Shown: piece after piece, positions 1 through 6,026 of the stretch
How positions within the stretch are numbered: position 1 is the stretch's first letter
How the letters are laid out: each line of letters starts with the position of its first letter
Assembly: GCF_000378125.1 (NCBI RefSeq)
Contig: NZ_KB899243.1
Coordinates: 124,001 to 188,000, forward strand
From: Rudaea cellulosilytica DSM 22992
GTDB taxonomy: Bacteria > Pseudomonadota > Gammaproteobacteria > Xanthomonadales > Rhodanobacteraceae
Length of the DNA: 64,000 bases
Reading direction: 5' to 3'
The notes under the pieces: generated by a model
The model's input: only the letters and a program-made list of their open reading frames with translations
The model's database searches: none
What the model was told of the DNA's origin: nothing
Program-made: the position numbers and the translations under genes

Positions 1-111
1 AACGATGAGCTTATGAAGGCGGTAGATATCAAGCTTATTTGCGGTTCTTGCTACCAGGTTGCCAAAGGCATTTGGTTGCGTGCAAGGCACCCTGTGTCGA
101 GTGCGCCCTAA
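1..111 (+). CDS. 3' end of an integron cassette gene, function unknown (partial)
   Basis: This reading frame is open from the first base of the window and stops at TAA 109-111, leaving 36 C-terminal residues. The piece contains a CGSC motif and no domain I recognise. The stop lies inside the left end of attC site 1 (106-112, CCCTAAC), which is how cassette genes usually end. The start and most of the gene lie upstream of the window. That it is a cassette gene is inferred from the overlap with the attC site; its function cannot be given. Confidence 0.55.
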   Translation, partial: NDELMKAVDIKLICGSCYQVAKGIWLRARHPVSSAP

Positions 112-195
112 CTATTCGGTCAAGTGGACCGCTGCGGCGTGCCGCGGTAACCTGACCCTCACTGTGGCAGCGGCCACTTACCTCAAGCGTTAGGC
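106..195 (+). repeat. attC recombination site 1 of an integron cassette array
   Basis: The 90-bp site begins with CCCTAAC (106-112) and ends with GTTAGGC (189-195), matching the RYYYAAC and GTTRRRY core sites. Between them GTGGACCGCTGC can pair with GCAGCGGCCAC, leaving one unpaired A, as expected for the folded single-stranded attC substrate. Exchange would fall between G189 and T190. Two near-identical copies follow at 566 and 1204. Confidence 0.88.
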
Positions 196-205
196 GCCTA
201 CTTCT

Positions 206-571
206 ATGTTTCCAGGTCTTCCAGCGTTTGCTGTCTTCCTGCTTTCGGCGGGCGGGCAACTTCCAGGCTCTGTGCTTGAAACAGAACACTATGTCATTGA
301 ACTTTCGGAGACTTGTCCGGAGTTCAGCGTAGGCGATTGTACGGCGAGCTATCTCGGAAAGAACAAGACAACCGGCGCTTCCATCCGCCTCGAAGGCAAG
401 TCGGTAATGGCCTTGTGCAAAGACAACGCCACGCCGTGCCATTTCACTTGCTATCAATTCCCCAGCGGCGCTTATACGTATTTTGTCTACCCCGACGGCG
501 ATCTCAGAGTTACTAAGGGTGGGCATGTAGTCGCCCAAGAGCATGGCTCTTGGCGAGGCAGCGGCGCCTAA
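206..571 (+). CDS. Cassette gene: predicted exported protein, function unknown
   Basis: This gene encodes 121 residues and starts at ATG 206, only 11 bases after attC site 1; its TAA (569-571) lies inside attC site 2. The first ~20 residues are hydrophobic and could be an export signal, although no basic residues precede them. The mature part has six cysteines, two as CHFTC near residue 80, suggesting disulfide bonds outside the cytoplasm. I recognise no family. The compact gene-plus-attC layout and the stop codon inside the site mark it as a genuine cassette gene. Cassette boundaries are 190 and 649. Confidence 0.7.
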   Translation: MFPGLPAFAVFLLSAGGQLPGSVLETEHYVIELSETCPEFSVGDCTASYLGKNKTTGASIRLEGKSVMALCKDNATPCHFTCYQFPSGAYTYFVYPDGDLRVTKGGHVVAQEHGSWRGSGA

Positions 572-655
572 CTATTCGGTCAAGTGGACCGCTGCGATGG
601 GCCGCGGTAATCTGACGCCCACTGTGGCAGCGGCCACTCACCTCAAGCGTTAGCT
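566..655 (+). repeat. attC recombination site 2
   Basis: The 90-bp site runs from GCCTAAC (566-572) to GTTAGCT (649-655) and is nearly identical internally to sites 1 and 3. GCCTAAC is the exact complement of the GTTAGGC that opens this cassette at 189-195, as expected when cassette ends come from one circular molecule. The right core GTTAGCT departs from the GTTRRRY consensus at one base. Confidence 0.88.
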
Positions 656-671
656 ACCGTTGGAGCGACAC

Positions 672-1196
672 GTGCGCGGCATACTCCCATTCGGTCTTCT
701 CTTCTCTGCACTTATCGCTATACAAGGCTGTGCGCCGCTTCAATCAGAAGACACAGCAAAGCTTCCTCGCTCAGCAGTTGAGCAGCAGCTCTCGTCTTCC
801 GATCCATCAAACTACTATGTTTATGCTGCGAGGCTTTTCCACGAAGGTGCCAAAGAAGACGCCGTTTTCTGGTTCTACGTTGGTGAAATTCGCTACCGGT
901 TCTACCTTGCAGCAAACCCCACTCTCGATCCTAGTGGCGCCCCTGCTCTCTTCAGTTCTTTGCATGAAGAGGTCGGTTCTGTAGTCAACGGGTGGGCCGG
1001 CGCCGACCCTGACTCATGGGCAAAGCAAATGGGGCGCGCTCTAGCTTGGGACGCCACCAACGACAACAAATTCACATCCAAGGCCACCTATGCCAAGCAG
1101 TGGCAAGACGCTCGTTTGGGGTTAGAGAAGCTTAAAGAGGAGGTGGTAGCAAATAAGGCTCAAATCCTTGAAGAGCGTAAGAAACGAGGCCTGTGA
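672..1196 (+). CDS. Cassette gene: predicted lipoprotein of unknown function
   Basis: From GTG 672 this gene encodes 174 residues. I chose GTG 672 because GGAG at 662-665 sits six bases before it; an in-frame TTG at 660 would add four residues and has no ribosome site. The N-terminus is a signal peptide ending in a lipobox (AIQGC), so the protein is probably lipid-anchored. The remainder is soluble, with tryptophan- and tyrosine-containing segments and a charged, possibly coiled-coil C-terminal helix (about residues 145-174). No family is recognised. It fills the cassette between exchange points 649 and 1287. Confidence 0.72.
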   Translation: MRGILPFGLLFSALIAIQGCAPLQSEDTAKLPRSAVEQQLSSSDPSNYYVYAARLFHEGAKEDAVFWFYVGEIRYRFYLAANPTLDPSGAPALFSSLHEEVGSVVNGWAGADPDSWAKQMGRALAWDATNDNKFTSKATYAKQWQDARLGLEKLKEEVVANKAQILEERKKRGL

Positions 1197-1203
1197 GATC
1201 GAT

Positions 1204-1293
1204 AGCTAACTATTCGGTCAAGTGGACCACTGCGACGTGCCACGGTAATCTGACGCTCATTGTGGCAGCGGCCACTTACCTCAAGCGTTAGGC
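1204..1293 (+). repeat. attC recombination site 3
   Basis: The site runs from AGCTAAC (1204-1210) to GTTAGGC (1287-1293). The left core AGCTAAC is unusual, but it exactly complements the equally unusual GTTAGCT (649-655) at the start of the same cassette. This match shows that the two ends once formed a single site in a cassette circle. The internal sequence is nearly the same as in sites 1 and 2. Confidence 0.88.
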
Positions 1294-1300
1294 TTCAGCA

Positions 1301-1681
1301 GTGAAGACTCGTAGCACTATCATCGTTTCTTTCACATGCTTGGCTTTCGCAGGCGTCGCCGCTTTTTCGCTGTGTCAAGAGATGGTCTATCTATCCGCGC
1401 AACAAGATGTTTCAGCGTACAGTGCGGACAATTGGTCTTATCAAGACCGCCCAGACGCGGTGATTCGTTCTGGTAGCACAGTACCTATCGTGGGCTGCGT
1501 TAGCGACAAGAGTGACGTCCACGAAATCGTCGAGATCTCCGGCCATAGGTACTTCGTAGGTCCGGGGAGCTACACAATCCCCAGGCGTCGGGCCAGCATC
1601 GAGGAGGCTTGGTTCAATCCTCGGGCCATCCTTAGTTGTGCAGGCTTTCTCCCGGGCGTTTCCCGCGAAGCGCCTAACTAG
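1301..1681 (+). CDS. Cassette gene: predicted secreted protein, function unknown
   Basis: This gene encodes 126 residues from GTG 1301, eight bases after attC site 3. It stops at TAG 1679-1681, so its last codons are written by the left end of attC site 4. Residues 1-25 form a clear signal sequence (basic MKTR, then a hydrophobic stretch). The mature protein has several cysteines (VGCV, LSCAG) and no domain I recognise. A periplasmic or membrane-attached location is inferred from the signal. No independent promoter is evident, so expression would depend on read-through from upstream. Confidence 0.68.
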   Translation: MKTRSTIIVSFTCLAFAGVAAFSLCQEMVYLSAQQDVSAYSADNWSYQDRPDAVIRSGSTVPIVGCVSDKSDVHEIVEISGHRYFVGPGSYTIPRRRASIEEAWFNPRAILSCAGFLPGVSREAPN

Positions 1682-1765
1682 GCGCTCAAGCGGACCGTGC
1701 GGGCGAACTTGCTCGCGCGTACCATGGGTCATCGGCCGCACGGCCGCTTAGCTTAGGCGTTAGGC
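1672..1765 (+). repeat. attC recombination site 4 (divergent type)
   Basis: The 94-bp site runs from GCCTAAC (1672-1678) to GTTAGGC (1759-1765), and its left core matches the opening of its cassette at 1287-1293. The interior differs from sites 1-3 and contains complementary blocks around CGGGCGAACTT and the CGGCCGCACGGCCG region, so it can still fold. The different interior suggests that this cassette came from another source array. Confidence 0.82.
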
Positions 1766-1804
1766 GTCGGCACCACCACCGTCACATACTTTCGGTATTT
1801 TCGA

Positions 1805-2191
1805 ATGGTCTCTGTAGTCCACAACCCATCCAGCGTCTTTCCGCCCTATCGGGGCTACGTACACGCCCTTGAAGTTCCGGCTGGTTCCCGGCTGCTGTTC
1901 ATCAGCGGACTCAATGGATTCGAGCAGGACGGTGTCACAATGCCTGACTCGTTCGAAAGCCAGGCTGAGATCATTTGGGCTCACATCCGCTCGATCTTGG
2001 CCTCAGCCGGAATGACCGTGACCAATCTTGTATCGTTGCGCACCTACTTAGCCGACCCAAAGCACGATGAGGCCAACGCACAAATGCGTGCCAAACAACT
2101 GGGAACGCATCGTGTCTCGTCCACAGTTGTGTGCTGCCAGCTTCTTGAGTCCAAGTGGAAGCTCGAAATCGAGGCAGTTGCTGCGGCGTAG
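1805..2191 (+). CDS. Cassette gene: RidA/YjgF-family protein
   Basis: The 128-residue product has the size and pattern of RidA (YjgF/YER057c/UK114) proteins: FISGLNG near residue 33, a central helix, NLVSLRTYLAD near 74-85 and a C-terminal KLEIEAVA strand. RidA enzymes hydrolyse reactive enamine/imine intermediates. In my by-eye alignment the catalytic arginine (Arg105 of E. coli RidA) is replaced by serine, so it may belong to a Rid subfamily lacking that activity. It begins 40 bases after attC site 4, so it is a cassette gene, but no attC follows. An IS30-type remnant lies just downstream and probably removed the site. Confidence 0.75.
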   Translation: MVSVVHNPSSVFPPYRGYVHALEVPAGSRLLFISGLNGFEQDGVTMPDSFESQAEIIWAHIRSILASAGMTVTNLVSLRTYLADPKHDEANAQMRAKQLGTHRVSSTVVCCQLLESKWKLEIEAVAAA

Positions 2192-2252
2192 CCTTCCGTG
2201 CCAAAAAAAACTTCGCAGTCCGTCGTCTGGATTCAACTTCTAAGTGCAACAC

Positions 2253-2411
2253 CTAGCGGGACCGAGCGAACACTTCCCTCGGCGTTTTGAAGTTGTGCCG
2301 CTTACGTGGCCTGTCATTGAGGTGTCTTGCAATCTGGCGACCATCGTCAGCAGTGCGAAGAGCCGGCACCCATGACCGTATCGGCTTCCCAATCGCCGTT
2401 ACGACCTCGCT
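2253..2411 (-). pseudogene. Remnant of an IS30-family transposase (C-terminal end)
   Basis: On the minus strand a frame of about 52 codons ends at TAG (complement of 2253-2255). Its last ~30 residues (LNDRPRKRHNFKTPREVF and flanks) match the characteristic C-terminal end of IS30 transposases, which cut and join insertion-sequence ends. The catalytic DDE core is absent and an in-frame TGA lies at 2412-2414, so nothing functional is encoded. The residues upstream of the matching end are not clearly IS30 and may be rearranged. Confidence 0.6.
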
Positions 2412-2470
2412 TCAGTGTGAGTGATTCGGCGAGGCGGCACCGATCGAGAAAAATGCCGTAGTCCGAAAAC

Positions 2471-2495
2471 AGAAAAGGAGGCGCGCTGCGCCTCC
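2471..2495 (-). terminator. Possible minus-strand terminator hairpin
   Basis: GGAGGCGC (2477-2484) and GCGCCTCC (2488-2495) form a perfect 8-bp stem with a 3-base loop. On the minus strand it is followed by TTTTCTGTTTTC, which resembles an intrinsic terminator. No minus-strand gene ends here, so its role is uncertain; it may belong to the transposon remnant. Confidence 0.35.
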
Positions 2496-2599
2496 CACTA
2501 TGAATTTATATCATCCCCAGGGGCTTGCGGCAAGGCTCAAGGCGAGAACTAGAATCGCGGCCCTGTCGATAGGACAGCCTGCATGAGGCAACAAAGGCG

Positions 2600-3034
2600 A
2601 TGCATCATGATGATGATTGGATTCCGGTGTCACCTGAAAATTGCGACTTGGTAGTTGGTCCGTTCTACCACGGAACAAAAGCAAACCTGTCGGTGGGCGA
2701 GCTGCTGACGGCAGGCTTCAGATCCAACTACGACGATAGTGTCGTGATGAATCACATCTACTTCACAACCTTGCCAAAGGGAGCCGGCCTTGCTGCGGAA
2801 ATAGCGAAGGGCGATGGTAGGCCGCGAGTCTATGTCGTCATGCCAATGGGAACATTTGAAGATGACCCCAACGTCACCAACAAAAAATTCCGAGGCAATC
2901 CAACCCGGTCATACAGAAGCGAGTCCCCTTTGAAAATCATTGGGGAAATTGAACGCTGGGAATCCTACGACCCGGAATTCATCCAACAATTGAGAGATCG
3001 CGTCAAAGCGGGCATGGGTGTAATCATCAATTGA
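2600..3034 (+). CDS. arr: Rifampin ADP-ribosyltransferase (Arr family)
   Basis: The 144-residue product is a full-length Arr enzyme, which transfers ADP-ribose from NAD+ to a hydroxyl of rifamycins and inactivates them in the cytoplasm. It has the conserved blocks PFYHGTKANL (21-30), HIYF (52-55), FEDDPN (86-91) and KKFRGNPTRSYRS (94-106). His24, Tyr54 and Asp89 correspond to the His19, Tyr49 and Asp84 described for the mycobacterial enzyme. The start at ATG 2600 fits the Arr-2 N-terminus (DWIP motif). It lies in the cassette array between the IS30 remnant and attC site 5, a setting typical of arr-2-type genes. No own promoter is obvious. Resistance is predicted from sequence only. Confidence 0.9.
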   Translation: MHHDDDWIPVSPENCDLVVGPFYHGTKANLSVGELLTAGFRSNYDDSVVMNHIYFTTLPKGAGLAAEIAKGDGRPRVYVVMPMGTFEDDPNVTNKKFRGNPTRSYRSESPLKIIGEIERWESYDPEFIQQLRDRVKAGMGVIIN

Positions 3035-3067
3035 GGGGAGGCAACGGACATTCACCCTGTCGAAAAC

Positions 3068-3161
3068 AACTAGCTATTCGCTCGAGCCGACGCCGCTTCG
3101 TGGCGTCGTCCTTGAGCTTCGGATACCCTAGCCAAAGCATCGCCATGCTCAAGCGTTATAA
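3068..3161 (+). repeat. attC-like site 5 (degenerate left core)
   Basis: CTATTCG followed by CGAGCCGACGCC aligns with the left half of sites 1-3, and GCTCAAGCGTTATAA (3147-3161) supplies the right half. GACGCC and GGCGTC flank CGCTTCGT as a central stem. The left core reads AACTAGC, with G in place of the conserved A of the AAC triplet, so recombination may be weakened. The right core is GTTATAA. Confidence 0.7.
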
Positions 3162-3179
3162 CTCGCAAGGTAGCTTCCG

Positions 3180-3479
3180 ATGATCTCGAAATCAGGTCTG
3201 TGCATGATCCTGCTTGCGGCGTCCGGCGCGGCCGGCGCAGATCAAATGCCGAAACCGGGCAGTTACGGCTTCAATTGGCTCAAGGCGGATAGTCGCTGCA
3301 AGAAACTGACCGAAAAGGACTTCTCGCAAGTGAAAACATGCACCGAAAGCAGCAATGCTTTCGGGCTTCAGCTGCATTCCCACGCGTGCAAAGTCAACGC
3401 GCAGACTGAGCTCATGGTCTATGCCACCGCGGCACAGTGCCAAGAGGCGCTGGAAACTATGCAGGCAAACGGCCCGTGA
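3180..3479 (+). CDS. Small predicted secreted protein, probable last cassette gene
   Basis: This gene encodes 99 residues from ATG 3180, 18 bases after attC-like site 5. The first ~20 residues look like a signal peptide (MISKSGLCMILL, then small residues and AGA). The mature part has four cysteines (SRCKK, KTCTE, HACKV, AQCQE) with regular spacing, suggesting two disulfides in the periplasm. No family is recognised. The position next to an attC site suggests a cassette, but no attC follows, so this is probably the worn end of the array. Confidence 0.6.
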   Translation: MISKSGLCMILLAASGAAGADQMPKPGSYGFNWLKADSRCKKLTEKDFSQVKTCTESSNAFGLQLHSHACKVNAQTELMVYATAAQCQEALETMQANGP

Positions 3480-3613
3480 CACTAGCGGGGACTCCCAAAC
3501 CGGTTCAGTCGTTGCGCATGGGCGCCGGCAATGGAGGTCATCGCAGCGATCAGCTTTGACTCACCGAACACGTCCAAACCCAAGCACCAGGCTTTCCACG
3601 GGGGATTTTCTCC

Positions 3614-4039
3614 ATGACTGCAAAGCTGTTGTACCGAGTCGTCGCCGTCGTTCTTGTTCTGTTCACCGCGGGCCACACTTTCGGCTTCCTATCGTTTCGG
3701 CCGCCTTCCGCAGACGGCCTCGCCGTCTTCGCCGCAATGGGCAACGTCCGCTTCACGTTGGACGGCGGTAGTTACACATACGCCGGCTTCTACACTGGCT
3801 TTGGTCTGATGGTATCGGCGTACATACTTTTTTCCGCTTTCCTTGCGTGGCATCTTGGCGCCATCTCTTCGACACAACCCCAAACCATAGTTACGCTTGC
3901 CTGGGCTTTTGCCGCACTTCAGATCGTTTGCCTTGTTCTCGGCTGGCTTTACTTCTTTCTTGTTCCCATCCTGTTTTCCGCCGTCGTCTCGATTTGTTCG
4001 GTCTGGGCGGCATGGTTGCTGGGGAAGGCCAATGCCTGA
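3614..4039 (+). CDS. Small integral membrane protein, function unknown
   Basis: The 141-residue product has about four hydrophobic segments (roughly 6-26, 60-82, 92-114 and 117-137), indicating an inner-membrane protein. GGGGGA at 3601-3606 is a plausible ribosome site for ATG 3614. It ends with GKANA and has no catalytic motif. It stands outside the attC array and 135 bases from the last cassette-like gene. I cannot assign a family with confidence. Confidence 0.6.
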   Translation: MTAKLLYRVVAVVLVLFTAGHTFGFLSFRPPSADGLAVFAAMGNVRFTLDGGSYTYAGFYTGFGLMVSAYILFSAFLAWHLGAISSTQPQTIVTLAWAFAALQIVCLVLGWLYFFLVPILFSAVVSICSVWAAWLLGKANA

Positions 4040-4130
4040 AGATTCGCTCGAACTGACCGCCGCGAGCGGTAGCAACCCGTTGGGCCCATCGAGGAAGCGG
4101 CAACTTCGTTGCCGCCCGGGAGGACGTTGA

Positions 4131-4535
4131 ATGAGCCGACGATTGATGCTGTTTCCCACCGCGGTCCGTCGCGACCCCACCATTGATCTCTGGATGAAGA
4201 ATCATCCGGGGCCGCTGGGCGCCATCGCGCAACGCTGGTTCGATGTCATGCGCGGTTGCGGACCGGACGTCACCGAACTGCTGCACGACGGCCACCCGAC
4301 CGCATGCATCGGCGAAGCCGCGTTCGCATACGTCAATGCCTTCACCCATCACGTCGACGTCGGGTTTTTTCTCGGCGCCGAACTCGCTGATCCGAAGGAC
4401 TTGCTGGAAGGCAGCGGCAAATTCATGCGCCATGTTAAGTTCCGGCCCGGGCTTGAGCCGGATGCAACGGCGGTCAACGCGCTCGTGGCAGAGGCCTATG
4501 CAGACATGCAGCGCTATCTCGCATCAACCAGATAG
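4131..4535 (+). CDS. DUF1801-domain protein
   Basis: This 134-residue product resembles DUF1801 (YdhG-like) proteins, a small fold related to frataxin and YjbR whose role is unknown. Features are CIGEAAFAYVNAFTHHVDVGF near residues 59-79, LLEGSGKFMRHVKF near 97-110 and a C-terminal helix. GGAGG (4120-4124) lies at a good distance from ATG 4131. The neighbours on both sides are uncharacterised membrane proteins, so context adds nothing. Confidence 0.65.
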   Translation: MSRRLMLFPTAVRRDPTIDLWMKNHPGPLGAIAQRWFDVMRGCGPDVTELLHDGHPTACIGEAAFAYVNAFTHHVDVGFFLGAELADPKDLLEGSGKFMRHVKFRPGLEPDATAVNALVAEAYADMQRYLASTR

Positions 4536-4580
4536 CTGCACTCTTCCCATAGGCTCCCCGCGCCGGCCTCGTCCGAAGCA

Positions 4581-4880
4581 ATGAACAAATCGTCGCTACG
4601 AAATGCATCGATATCTTGCCTCGCGCTCTGGGCGATGATCTGGTTGGCTTTTCTGTCGATTCGCTTCTCATCGCTCGATATCAGGGACCTGCCAGCCATC
4701 GGTCCGATCATGCTCGTTGCGCTCGGCAGCGTGCTTCTGGCTCCGCTGGCTGCCAGCGTGCTTGCGGGCGTCGCCTCGGTGCGACAACCCAAGGTGGCAT
4801 GGAACTGGCTCGTGTTGGGCTGCGCAACAGCGGCGTTCTTCGGCCAAGGGCTTTTGTTCTTCGTCTCAAGCTGGATGTAA
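4581..4880 (+). CDS. Small membrane protein, function unknown
   Basis: The 99-residue product has three predicted membrane helices (about 8-28, 40-65 and 74-96) and a short charged loop around residue 70. It follows the DUF1801 gene by 45 bases in the same direction, so the two may be co-transcribed. No strong ribosome site precedes ATG 4581. No family is recognised. Confidence 0.5.
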   Translation: MNKSSLRNASISCLALWAMIWLAFLSIRFSSLDIRDLPAIGPIMLVALGSVLLAPLAASVLAGVASVRQPKVAWNWLVLGCATAAFFGQGLLFFVSSWM

Positions 4881-4952
4881 TGCCCGACTAGTCGTGGATC
4901 GCTGCGATGCGCGTATGCACCGCCGAGCACACCGCGGCAGCGATAGCTTGGC

Positions 4953-6026
4953 TCAAGTATCGGGCGTCTCGATGGAACCTTCAGGGGCTTTCGGAAAAAT
5001 CAGCATCGCATCGCCGTAGGAAAAGAAGCGATAGCGCTGCTCGACCGCGTGCCGATACGCCTCGAGGATCAGCTTGCGCCCGGCGTATGCCGAGACGAGC
5101 ATCAGCAGGGTCGACTCAGGCAAGTGGAAATTGGTGACCAGCGCATCGACGCTGGTGATTGCATAGCCCGGGAAGATAAAAATCTGCGTCTCGCCTGCGA
5201 ACGGTTCGACGACGCCGTCGCGCTTGGCCGATTCAAGCGCGCGCACGACCGTGGTACCGACCGCGACCACGCGCCCGCCCTGCGCGCGCGTGCGCCGCAT
5301 CTTCTCCACGAGCTCGGCGCCGACGTTGAGCCACTCACGGTGCATAACGTGGTCTTCGACGCTGTCGCGGCGCATGGGCTGGAACGTGCCCGCGCCGACA
5401 TGCAGGGTGACGTAGCCGAAATCGACGCCCTTCTCGCGCAGCGCATCGAGCAGCGGCGCGTCGAAGTGCAAGCCGGCCGTGGGTGCGGCCACCGCGCCGG
5501 GCGTATGCGCGAACACGGTCTGGTAGCGCACCTCGTCGTCGGCATCGATGGCCGAAACCTTGTCTTCGCGCTCGATGTACGGCGGCAGCGGCATGCGGCC
5601 GAGCTTGGGCAGCAGTTTTTCCAGCGGCTCGGCCGACTCGAAGCGCAGCGAATAAAACTCGCCTTCGCGGCCAAGCACGAGAATCGTGCTGTTGTCGCCG
5701 AGCAGGATGCGCGAGCCCTGCTTCGGCTTCTTCGACACGCCGAGCTGGGCCAGCGCCTCGTGTGCACCGGTGATGCGTTCGATCAGGATCTCGACCGCAC
5801 CGCCGGTTTCCTTGCGCCCGTACAGGCGCGCGTGCAGCACGCGCGTGTCGTTGAACACGAGCAGGTCGCCCGCGCGCACGTAGTCGACGAGATCGGTGAA
5901 GCGGCGATCCGCGAAACCGCGTGCCGCGGCGTCGACGACGAGCAAGCGGCTCGCCGAACGCTGCGCGAGCGGCGCCTGCGCGATCAGCTCGCGCGGCAGG
6001 TCGTAGTGGAAATCGGATTTCTTCAA
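4953..6026 (-). CDS. queA: S-adenosylmethionine:tRNA ribosyltransferase-isomerase
   Basis: QueA transfers and isomerises the ribosyl part of S-adenosylmethionine onto 7-aminomethyl-7-deazaguanine in tRNA, making epoxyqueuosine, the second-last step of queuosine synthesis. The 357-residue product is full length and shows the family signatures: FHYDLPRELIAQ at the start, LLVFNDTRVLHARL, GAVAAPTAGLHF and a C-terminal YGDAMLI. It is cytoplasmic. The partner tgt, often next to queA, is not here. The small membrane gene lies just upstream on the same strand. Confidence 0.95.
   Translation of the reverse strand: MKKSDFHYDLPRELIAQAPLAQRSASRLLVVDAAARGFADRRFTDLVDYVRAGDLLVFNDTRVLHARLYGRKETGGAVEILIERITGAHEALAQLGVSKKPKQGSRILLGDNSTILVLGREGEFYSLRFESAEPLEKLLPKLGRMPLPPYIEREDKVSAIDADDEVRYQTVFAHTPGAVAAPTAGLHFDAPLLDALREKGVDFGYVTLHVGAGTFQPMRRDSVEDHVMHREWLNVGAELVEKMRRTRAQGGRVVAVGTTVVRALESAKRDGVVEPFAGETQIFIFPGYAITSVDALVTNFHLPESTLLMLVSAYAGRKLILEAYRHAVEQRYRFFSYGDAMLIFPKAPEGSIETPDT

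Follow-up and report, generated by a model that had tools for sequence, protein, structure and literature searches.

A chromosomal integron between tgt and queA in Rudaea cellulosilytica, and integrase-less attI platforms that may be loaded with cassettes in trans

Introduction

In Xanthomonas, clusters of attC sites lacking integron integrases (CALINs) sit at conserved loci, and CALINs can be mobilised in trans, according to the accessible part of PMC12444791. Cassette arrays are also entered by insertion sequences (ISs): those of the IS1111-attC group lie at a specific place in attC, as cited in the accessible portions of PMC11089894, PMC11187229 and PMC12444791, and an IS3 element inside a cassette gene is recorded in the accessible text of PMC11023631. 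Here we describe a cassette array at the left end of a 64,000-nucleotide stretch of the Rudaea cellulosilytica DSM 22992 genome (positions 124001-188000 of contig C3, hereafter the window; the genome comprises 4.34 Mb in 6 contigs and is 99.99% complete). A sequence-only reading of the window had recognised at 1-3161 the tail of an integron gene-cassette array without its integrase. Taken alone, the find is a chromosomal integron of the ordinary sort that happens to straddle the window edge. Its interest is raised by attI platforms without an integrase gene, whose cassettes differ between species in relatives, and by a group of IS3-family elements that appears to be directed to attC.

Results

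Why did the array seem to lack an integrase? The window edge cuts the integron, hence the impression. An integrase gene, intI, lies at about C3:121.44-122.45 kb (about -2560 to -1550 in window coordinates), divergent from the array, which we call array A. Model TIGR02249 matches it at C3:121442-122384 on the minus strand in two frames that meet within the gene, with 281.8 bits (over the cut-off) and 177.9 bits (under it); this is the sole locus in the genome with a piece above cut-off, and six weaker matches lie elsewhere. Between intI and the first cassette, at about C3:122592-122611, stands the attI site GGGGTCTATTTGTAG^TTAGGC, where the caret marks the crossover, with a TTGAC promoter-like box ~60 bp upstream of the crossover triplet. 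Sites homologous to this G^TT crossover adjoin full-length intI in relatives. The window starts 1.4 kb downstream of attI, and the integron head lies ~1.4-2.6 kb outside it. On the left intI is flanked by tgt, beyond which lie ORFs (open reading frames) read by eye as secF and secD, and queA is the right chromosomal flank.

Extension to the left, proposed beforehand as the check, found both intI and attI, and it also found the array continuing leftward as predicted, with attC sites at C3:122953, 123389 and 123705 (10953, 11389 and 11705 of locus L029). The notion of an integrase-less array survives only in that the assembled intI falls into two frames, so that an active integrase may be lacking. 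A chromosomal integron in Lysobacterales, which had been thought fitting, is supported by intI, attI, attC and the tgt/queA flanks. We rejected the idea that the tgt/queA location is common to the family: in 80 integron-related loci of relatives, many of them only 2-4 kb long, none of SecD, SecF, Tgt and QueA gave a match at E <= 1e-15, and no link to the Xanthomonas secF CALINs could be shown.

The attC sites were scored with a covariance model, R1, built from 13 attC sites of this genome and a hand-given structure (R''-spacer-L''-stem-L'-spacer-R', plus two bulged bases). Five attC-like sites had been named in the window; those at 106, 566, 1204 and 1672 are attC sites, although they match R1 by construction because all four are among the 13 training sequences, and the one at 3068 fails (7.7 bits, E = 1.6). 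As independent support, nine intact attC sites of the genome outside the training set score 92-106 bits and other truncated or divergent ones 40-53 bits, and a search of 50 loci from other genomes returned 131 matches at E <= 0.05. As had been described, the first three sites are nearly identical (over 85 bp, site 2 shares 92% identity with site 1 and likewise with site 3), the fourth is of a divergent type (74.7 bits), and small ORFs lie on the same strand with stops inside or adjoining the sites. The range 1-3161 proved too short, since a previously unlisted site at 4882-4965 (25 bits; E = 0.0019 in 127 kb and 8e-5 in 5.6 kb) carries the array on to queA. Across window positions 5000-64000 R1 gave a single match up to E = 1 (E = 0.55) and nothing better. 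Bottom-strand DNA folds support sites 1, 2 and 4, and less so site 3, 3069-3156 and 4882-4965. G+C content is 56% in 1-4965 and 65% in the remaining window. Rfam was tried as an attC detector and set aside; at its gathering threshold the window gives two tRNA matches only.

A cassette that has been inserted begins, after the crossover G^TT, and ends, before the terminal AAC, with bases that stem from a single circle. The start of a cassette should for that reason be complementary to its own end, whereas the two halves of each site come from neighbouring cassettes. In 19 cassettes of this genome the complementary run has a mean of 7.9 nt for own pairs, 5.4 nt for other pairings and 5.0 nt within sites, and none of 20,000 permutations matched the own-pair value. 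At the attI of array A the first cassette is complementary to its own end over 9 nt. Judged by sequence comparison, this match of start and end is a hallmark of insertion by the integrase.

The genome has three attI platforms. An 85-bp attC query matches 24 times, the hits falling within array A and at four contig ends, and two further attI-like sites lie near C3 1559 (platform B; 94% identical to that of array A, within a 197-bp homology at 78%) and near C5 217550 (platform E; 88% identical, within a 193-bp homology at 74%). Both B and E have a ~200-bp attI/promoter module and cassettes, attC is present at each, and no piece of intI was found at either. If a CALIN is taken to need two or more attC sites with no intI in the vicinity, B and E are CALINs and array A, with intI adjacent, is not. 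Their first cassettes match their own ends over 8 and 10 nt, respectively; platforms B and E have therefore been used as attI. Beside platform B, at L030:1797-4308, the 3' end of the adjacent resistance-nodulation-division (RND) transporter gene recurs in an ORF, by eye a duplication-like arrangement around another gene.

A conserved imperfect palindrome of the GTTACRCCC..GTAAC type, resembling half an attI core, surrounds the intI start (L029:10400-10470). The same palindrome is retained in many modules without intI and is a candidate binding site. We also considered the common left end of the intI-less (orphan) modules as the recombination boundary of a mobile attI unit, and abandoned the idea, as the palindrome there could equally set the limit by function.

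How widespread are such platforms? The family relatives include Rhodanobacter sp. B05 (G093), Rhodanobacter sp. Soil772 (G173), Dyella sp. S184 (G136) and Rhodanobacteraceae bacterium fen_1225 (G140). Among 197 family genomes, intI is found at E <= 1e-40 in 92 and an attI-like site at E <= 0.001 in at least 30, with at least 54 sites in all; the search scored at most four candidates per genome, so these counts are lower bounds. Two to four such sites occur in 18 of the 30 attI-bearing genomes. When only upstream matches in divergent orientation are counted as intI beside attI, the 54 sites comprise 8 with full-length intI, 4 with broken intI (R. cellulosilytica included), 5 with a remnant and 37 with none, and attC lies downstream at 7, 2, 4 and 25 of these, respectively. 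A core was recognised by script in 52 of the 54 sites, and among these the TTGAC box is present in 31 of 34 orphan modules and in 11 of 12 modules with full-length or broken intI, compared with ~2.8% of random 50-mers. First cassettes match their own ends at 4.91 of 7 positions at 22 orphan sites (2.38 when permuted) and at 5.0 at nine intI-bearing sites (2.56 permuted), values reached by 0 of 20,000 permutations in both cases; at five remnant sites the figure is 4.8 (3.24 permuted, 143 of 20,000). Within the genus of Rhodanobacter sp. B05, a similar module (E <= 1e-12) occurs in 19 of 45 genomes and intI (E <= 1e-40) in 37 of 45. In one array (G103, L119:6001-7922) two attI-like modules stand in tandem at a distance of 1.9 kb, and the first is accompanied by intI remnants.

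We compared 23 sites with intI absent or with remnants under 60 bits between species, judging sameness of locus by the neighbouring sequence. Four loci yielded 8 distinct species pairs, not all of them independent. In all eight the neighbouring sequence is 86-97% identical, and the first 150 bp past attI are 42-50% identical, no more than the random baseline of 47% (standard deviation 3%) would give. Among six pairs examined by blast, five have homology that spans the module up to the crossover, beyond which only attC-sized matches (61-67 bp) appear in the stretches compared. Every one of the eight paired genomes has an intI of 313-314 positions, stop-free and located elsewhere. The simplest reading of these pairs is that a distant IntI loads the intI-less sites. 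For the R. cellulosilytica platforms themselves no species pair was found; locus L122 of G030 adjoins a kinase gene related to the neighbour of platform E and keeps 117 intI codons.

Copies of a 1250-bp IS3-family element (L032:11575-12824, minus strand, and the ends of loci L030, L031 and L033; OrfB NF033516, 267.5 bits) lie at the ends of contigs C3, C4 and C5. In both array B and array E it interrupts an attC at one and the same base, with unchanged orientation, and an apparent 3-bp duplication, CCG, directly follows a bulged attC base. Three matches to its left end amount to two copies, because the C3 start and the C4 end overlap by 304 bp; by elimination, the C5 end would join the C3 end. 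The element carries the 10-mer CTAACTATTC (L032:12783-12792, minus strand) ~33 bp inside its left end, identical to the host attC start, by chance or mimicry.

Relatives of the element occur at E <= 1e-60 in 10 of the 197 family genomes, R. cellulosilytica included, and no OrfB relative was found in PLSDB plasmids at that threshold. From the best 80 of 295 relatives in a scan of genome_contigs we took the flanks of 49 and scored 41, together with one copy from the family search and the two of R. cellulosilytica. Of 29 testable left flanks, 25 have an attC R'' triplet 10-28 nt before the IS, compared with 2.4% of 20,000 random positions; on the right, 27 of 36 flanks have an R'-like triplet after the IS (29% by chance), and both sides agree in 16 of 22 (1.2%). 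Four copies at 46-48% identity, from Oceanimonas and Marinobacterium, pass on the left, the testable side, and relatives in Rhodanobacter, Pseudoxanthomonas, Luteimonas, Solimonas, Nevskia and others are mostly placed alike (L157-L164, L170-L210). So constant a position speaks against the view that arrays simply tolerate insertions. Five copies (L178, L181, L182, L185 and L196) tell the other way: inspected by eye, their flanks do not resemble attC. Testing for a 7-nt stem across the IS junctions gave 5 positive copies, with a control of 13%, and was of no help.

The features of the window are collected in Table 1; five of the array proteins have no match above cut-off. Between the RidA-like gene and arr no attC turned up with R1, also with filters off. 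The closest solved structure to the window Arr is ARR-2 (9iba; 150.7 bits). Arr matches on plasmids number 1734 records, the top one 75% identical (Burkholderia) and 1721 below 60%, and a plasmid search with window 2192-2599 gave no match. By eye, the minus strand at 2220-2345, in the interval from the RidA-like gene to arr, may carry the end of an IS30-family transposase gene.

Table 1. Features of the array in the window and its right flank (window coordinates; R1, attC covariance model; z, bottom-strand fold)
Feature	Position	Strand	Evidence
3' end of cassette ORF (L029:11800-12111, 103 aa; starts left of window)	1..111	+	stop inside attC 1
attC site 1	106..195	+	R1 106.9 bits (training member); z -2.7
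Cassette ORF, 121 aa	206..571	+	no family match
attC site 2	566..655	+	R1 103.5 bits (training member); z -2.2
Cassette ORF, 178 aa	660..1196	+	no match above curated cut-off
attC site 3	1204..1293	+	R1 102.8 bits (training member); z -1.3, weak
Cassette ORF, 126 aa	1301..1681	+	no family match
attC site 4, divergent type	1672..1765	+	R1 74.7 bits (training member); z -3.8
RidA-like (Ribonuc_L-PSP) gene	1805..2191	+	PF01042 52.6 bits (cut-off 27.3); TIGR00004 31.3, under cut-off 106
arr, rifampin ADP-ribosyltransferase gene	2600..3034	+	NF033144 147.9 bits (cut-off 130); PF12120
Site 5 as first read, at best a decayed attC	3068..3161	+	R1 7.7 bits, E 1.6, filters off; z -2.0 (3069-3156)
ORF, 99 aa	3180..3479	+	no match above curated cut-off
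LIC_13387-family ORF	3614..4039	+	NF047765 94.5 bits
Possible decayed attC	4034..4121	+	R1 11.7 bits, E 0.16, filters off
DUF1801 ORF	4131..4535	+	PF08818 40.3 bits
ORF, 99 aa	4581..4880	+	no family match
Weak attC, distal end, adjoining queA	4882..4965	+	R1 25 bits, outside training set; z -1.3
queA, right chromosomal flank	4953..6026	-	NF001140 469.8 bits

Discussion

With a probability of roughly 0.85, we regard window positions 1 to ~4965 as belonging to a sedentary chromosomal integron inserted between tgt and queA, of which they make up the middle and distal portions. IntI would have inserted circular cassettes successively at the attI G^TT, each keeping the match between the start and end of its former circle. 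The distal part (~1766-4965) would be older and worn, its attC sites decayed and its RidA-like and arr genes left with no recognisable attC between them. Several observations weigh against this picture. The start and end match over merely 1-3 nt in 3 of the 19 cassettes, the four window attC sites belong to the training set of R1, the site at 3068 fails the covariance test and the third attC fold is weak (z -1.3). Pc is a prediction from a sequence match. The assembled intI is broken into two frames, which makes its activity doubtful, mutation and error being indistinguishable here, and the integron may therefore now be frozen. That same split would agree with array A being a CALIN, an attC cluster that lost or never had an adjacent integrase, and arrays B and E of the same genome fit such a description except that attI is present. 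For array A, where intI and attI are adjacent, it is refuted, and we give it only a slim chance overall.

How, then, did platforms without intI acquire their cassettes? We lean, by a little over even odds, towards a distributed integron, in which one integrase of a Rhodanobacteraceae genome would serve dispersed attI/promoter platforms in trans, and a ~200-bp module of palindrome, promoter and attI would keep loading cassettes. In R. cellulosilytica the resident IntI, while active, would have served all three platforms. The intI-less platforms could instead be relics of full integrons, the differences between species having arisen by excision or homologous exchange of arrays and not by insertion in trans. 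We think this the less probable account, though one with a real share of the probability. An intI remnant persists at 5 of the 54 sites, the 117 intI codons of L122 in G030 stand by a kinase gene like that of platform E, and no intI at E <= 1e-40 appears in some of the genomes that have intI-less sites (e.g. G012 and G098). Array exchange by homologous recombination is possible, above all for L131/L132, where the modules themselves differ, homology ends at the left edge of the module and the two loci have a 560-bp block in common further on. Against relics, the orphan modules retain the promoter box and attI core (TTGAC in 31 of 34), and the first cassettes differ in 8 of 8 pairs with homology reaching the crossover in 5 of the 6 compared by blast.

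The survey also holds points that tell against service in trans. Downstream attC was not found at 12 of the 37 intI-less sites, at 6 of which the contig runs on for <1 kb; L143, also among the 37, has no core by eye, and two intI-less loci, L113 and L123, had no recognised core and were left out of the first-cassette test. One of the 8 full-length intI genes (G057) has an internal stop, and TTGAC is present in just 2 of 6 remnant modules. An origin of the intI-less arrays by cassette insertion at random attG sites in the genome, for which an E. coli precedent is cited in the accessible part of PMC12444791, is improbable and the least likely that we considered. Most intI-less sites share at least 180 bp before the crossover with intI-bearing sites, promoter box and palindrome included, and the few that share less have 34-58 bp in common (e.g. 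L099, L107, L109 and L123).

Integrase-less arrays are often taken as relics. If the distributed integron is true, a genome's integron is no single locus but a network of landing sites, each with a promoter of its own, which would explain intI-less arrays at conserved loci, and integron activity judged beside intI alone is an underestimate. The orthologous loci of the Rhodanobacter and Dyella relatives make service in trans directly testable. An IS3-family group that targets the attC stem next to the extrahelical base would be a second, separate novelty, providing another, unrelated way to target attC, and it would tie cassettes down. The accessible literature holds no description of IS3 elements targeting attC; most subscription papers were outside its scope, and absence from print is not thereby established.

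The arr gene of the window is one more environmental relative of a clinically known cassette gene. Its product belongs to the same family as ARR-2 of the class 1 integron arr-2 cassette, but here arr is chromosomal and lies in a worn distal region. The attC-directed IS3 elements resemble the IS1111-attC group (as far as it is described in the accessible sources) in that each inserts at one place in attC. They differ in belonging to the IS3 family, without a transposase of the IS110/IS1111 type, in their apparent 3-bp duplication and in their position in the attC stem. The chromosomal integrons and CALINs of Xanthomonas, as presented in the accessible part of PMC12444791, are likewise found in Lysobacterales, often have a broken intI and include integrase-less arrays at conserved loci. 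However, the Xanthomonas intI lies downstream of ilvD in that account, whereas here it lies between tgt and queA, and no attI is described there for the CALINs, whereas two intI-less arrays of R. cellulosilytica are headed by an attI/promoter module. This is reminiscent of the Delta-attI-type gene cassettes of PMC12901181, which also have attI sequence away from its integrase. Those are, in the accessible part of that source, cassettes in mobile integrons, unlike the whole attI/promoter platforms that head chromosomal arrays here.

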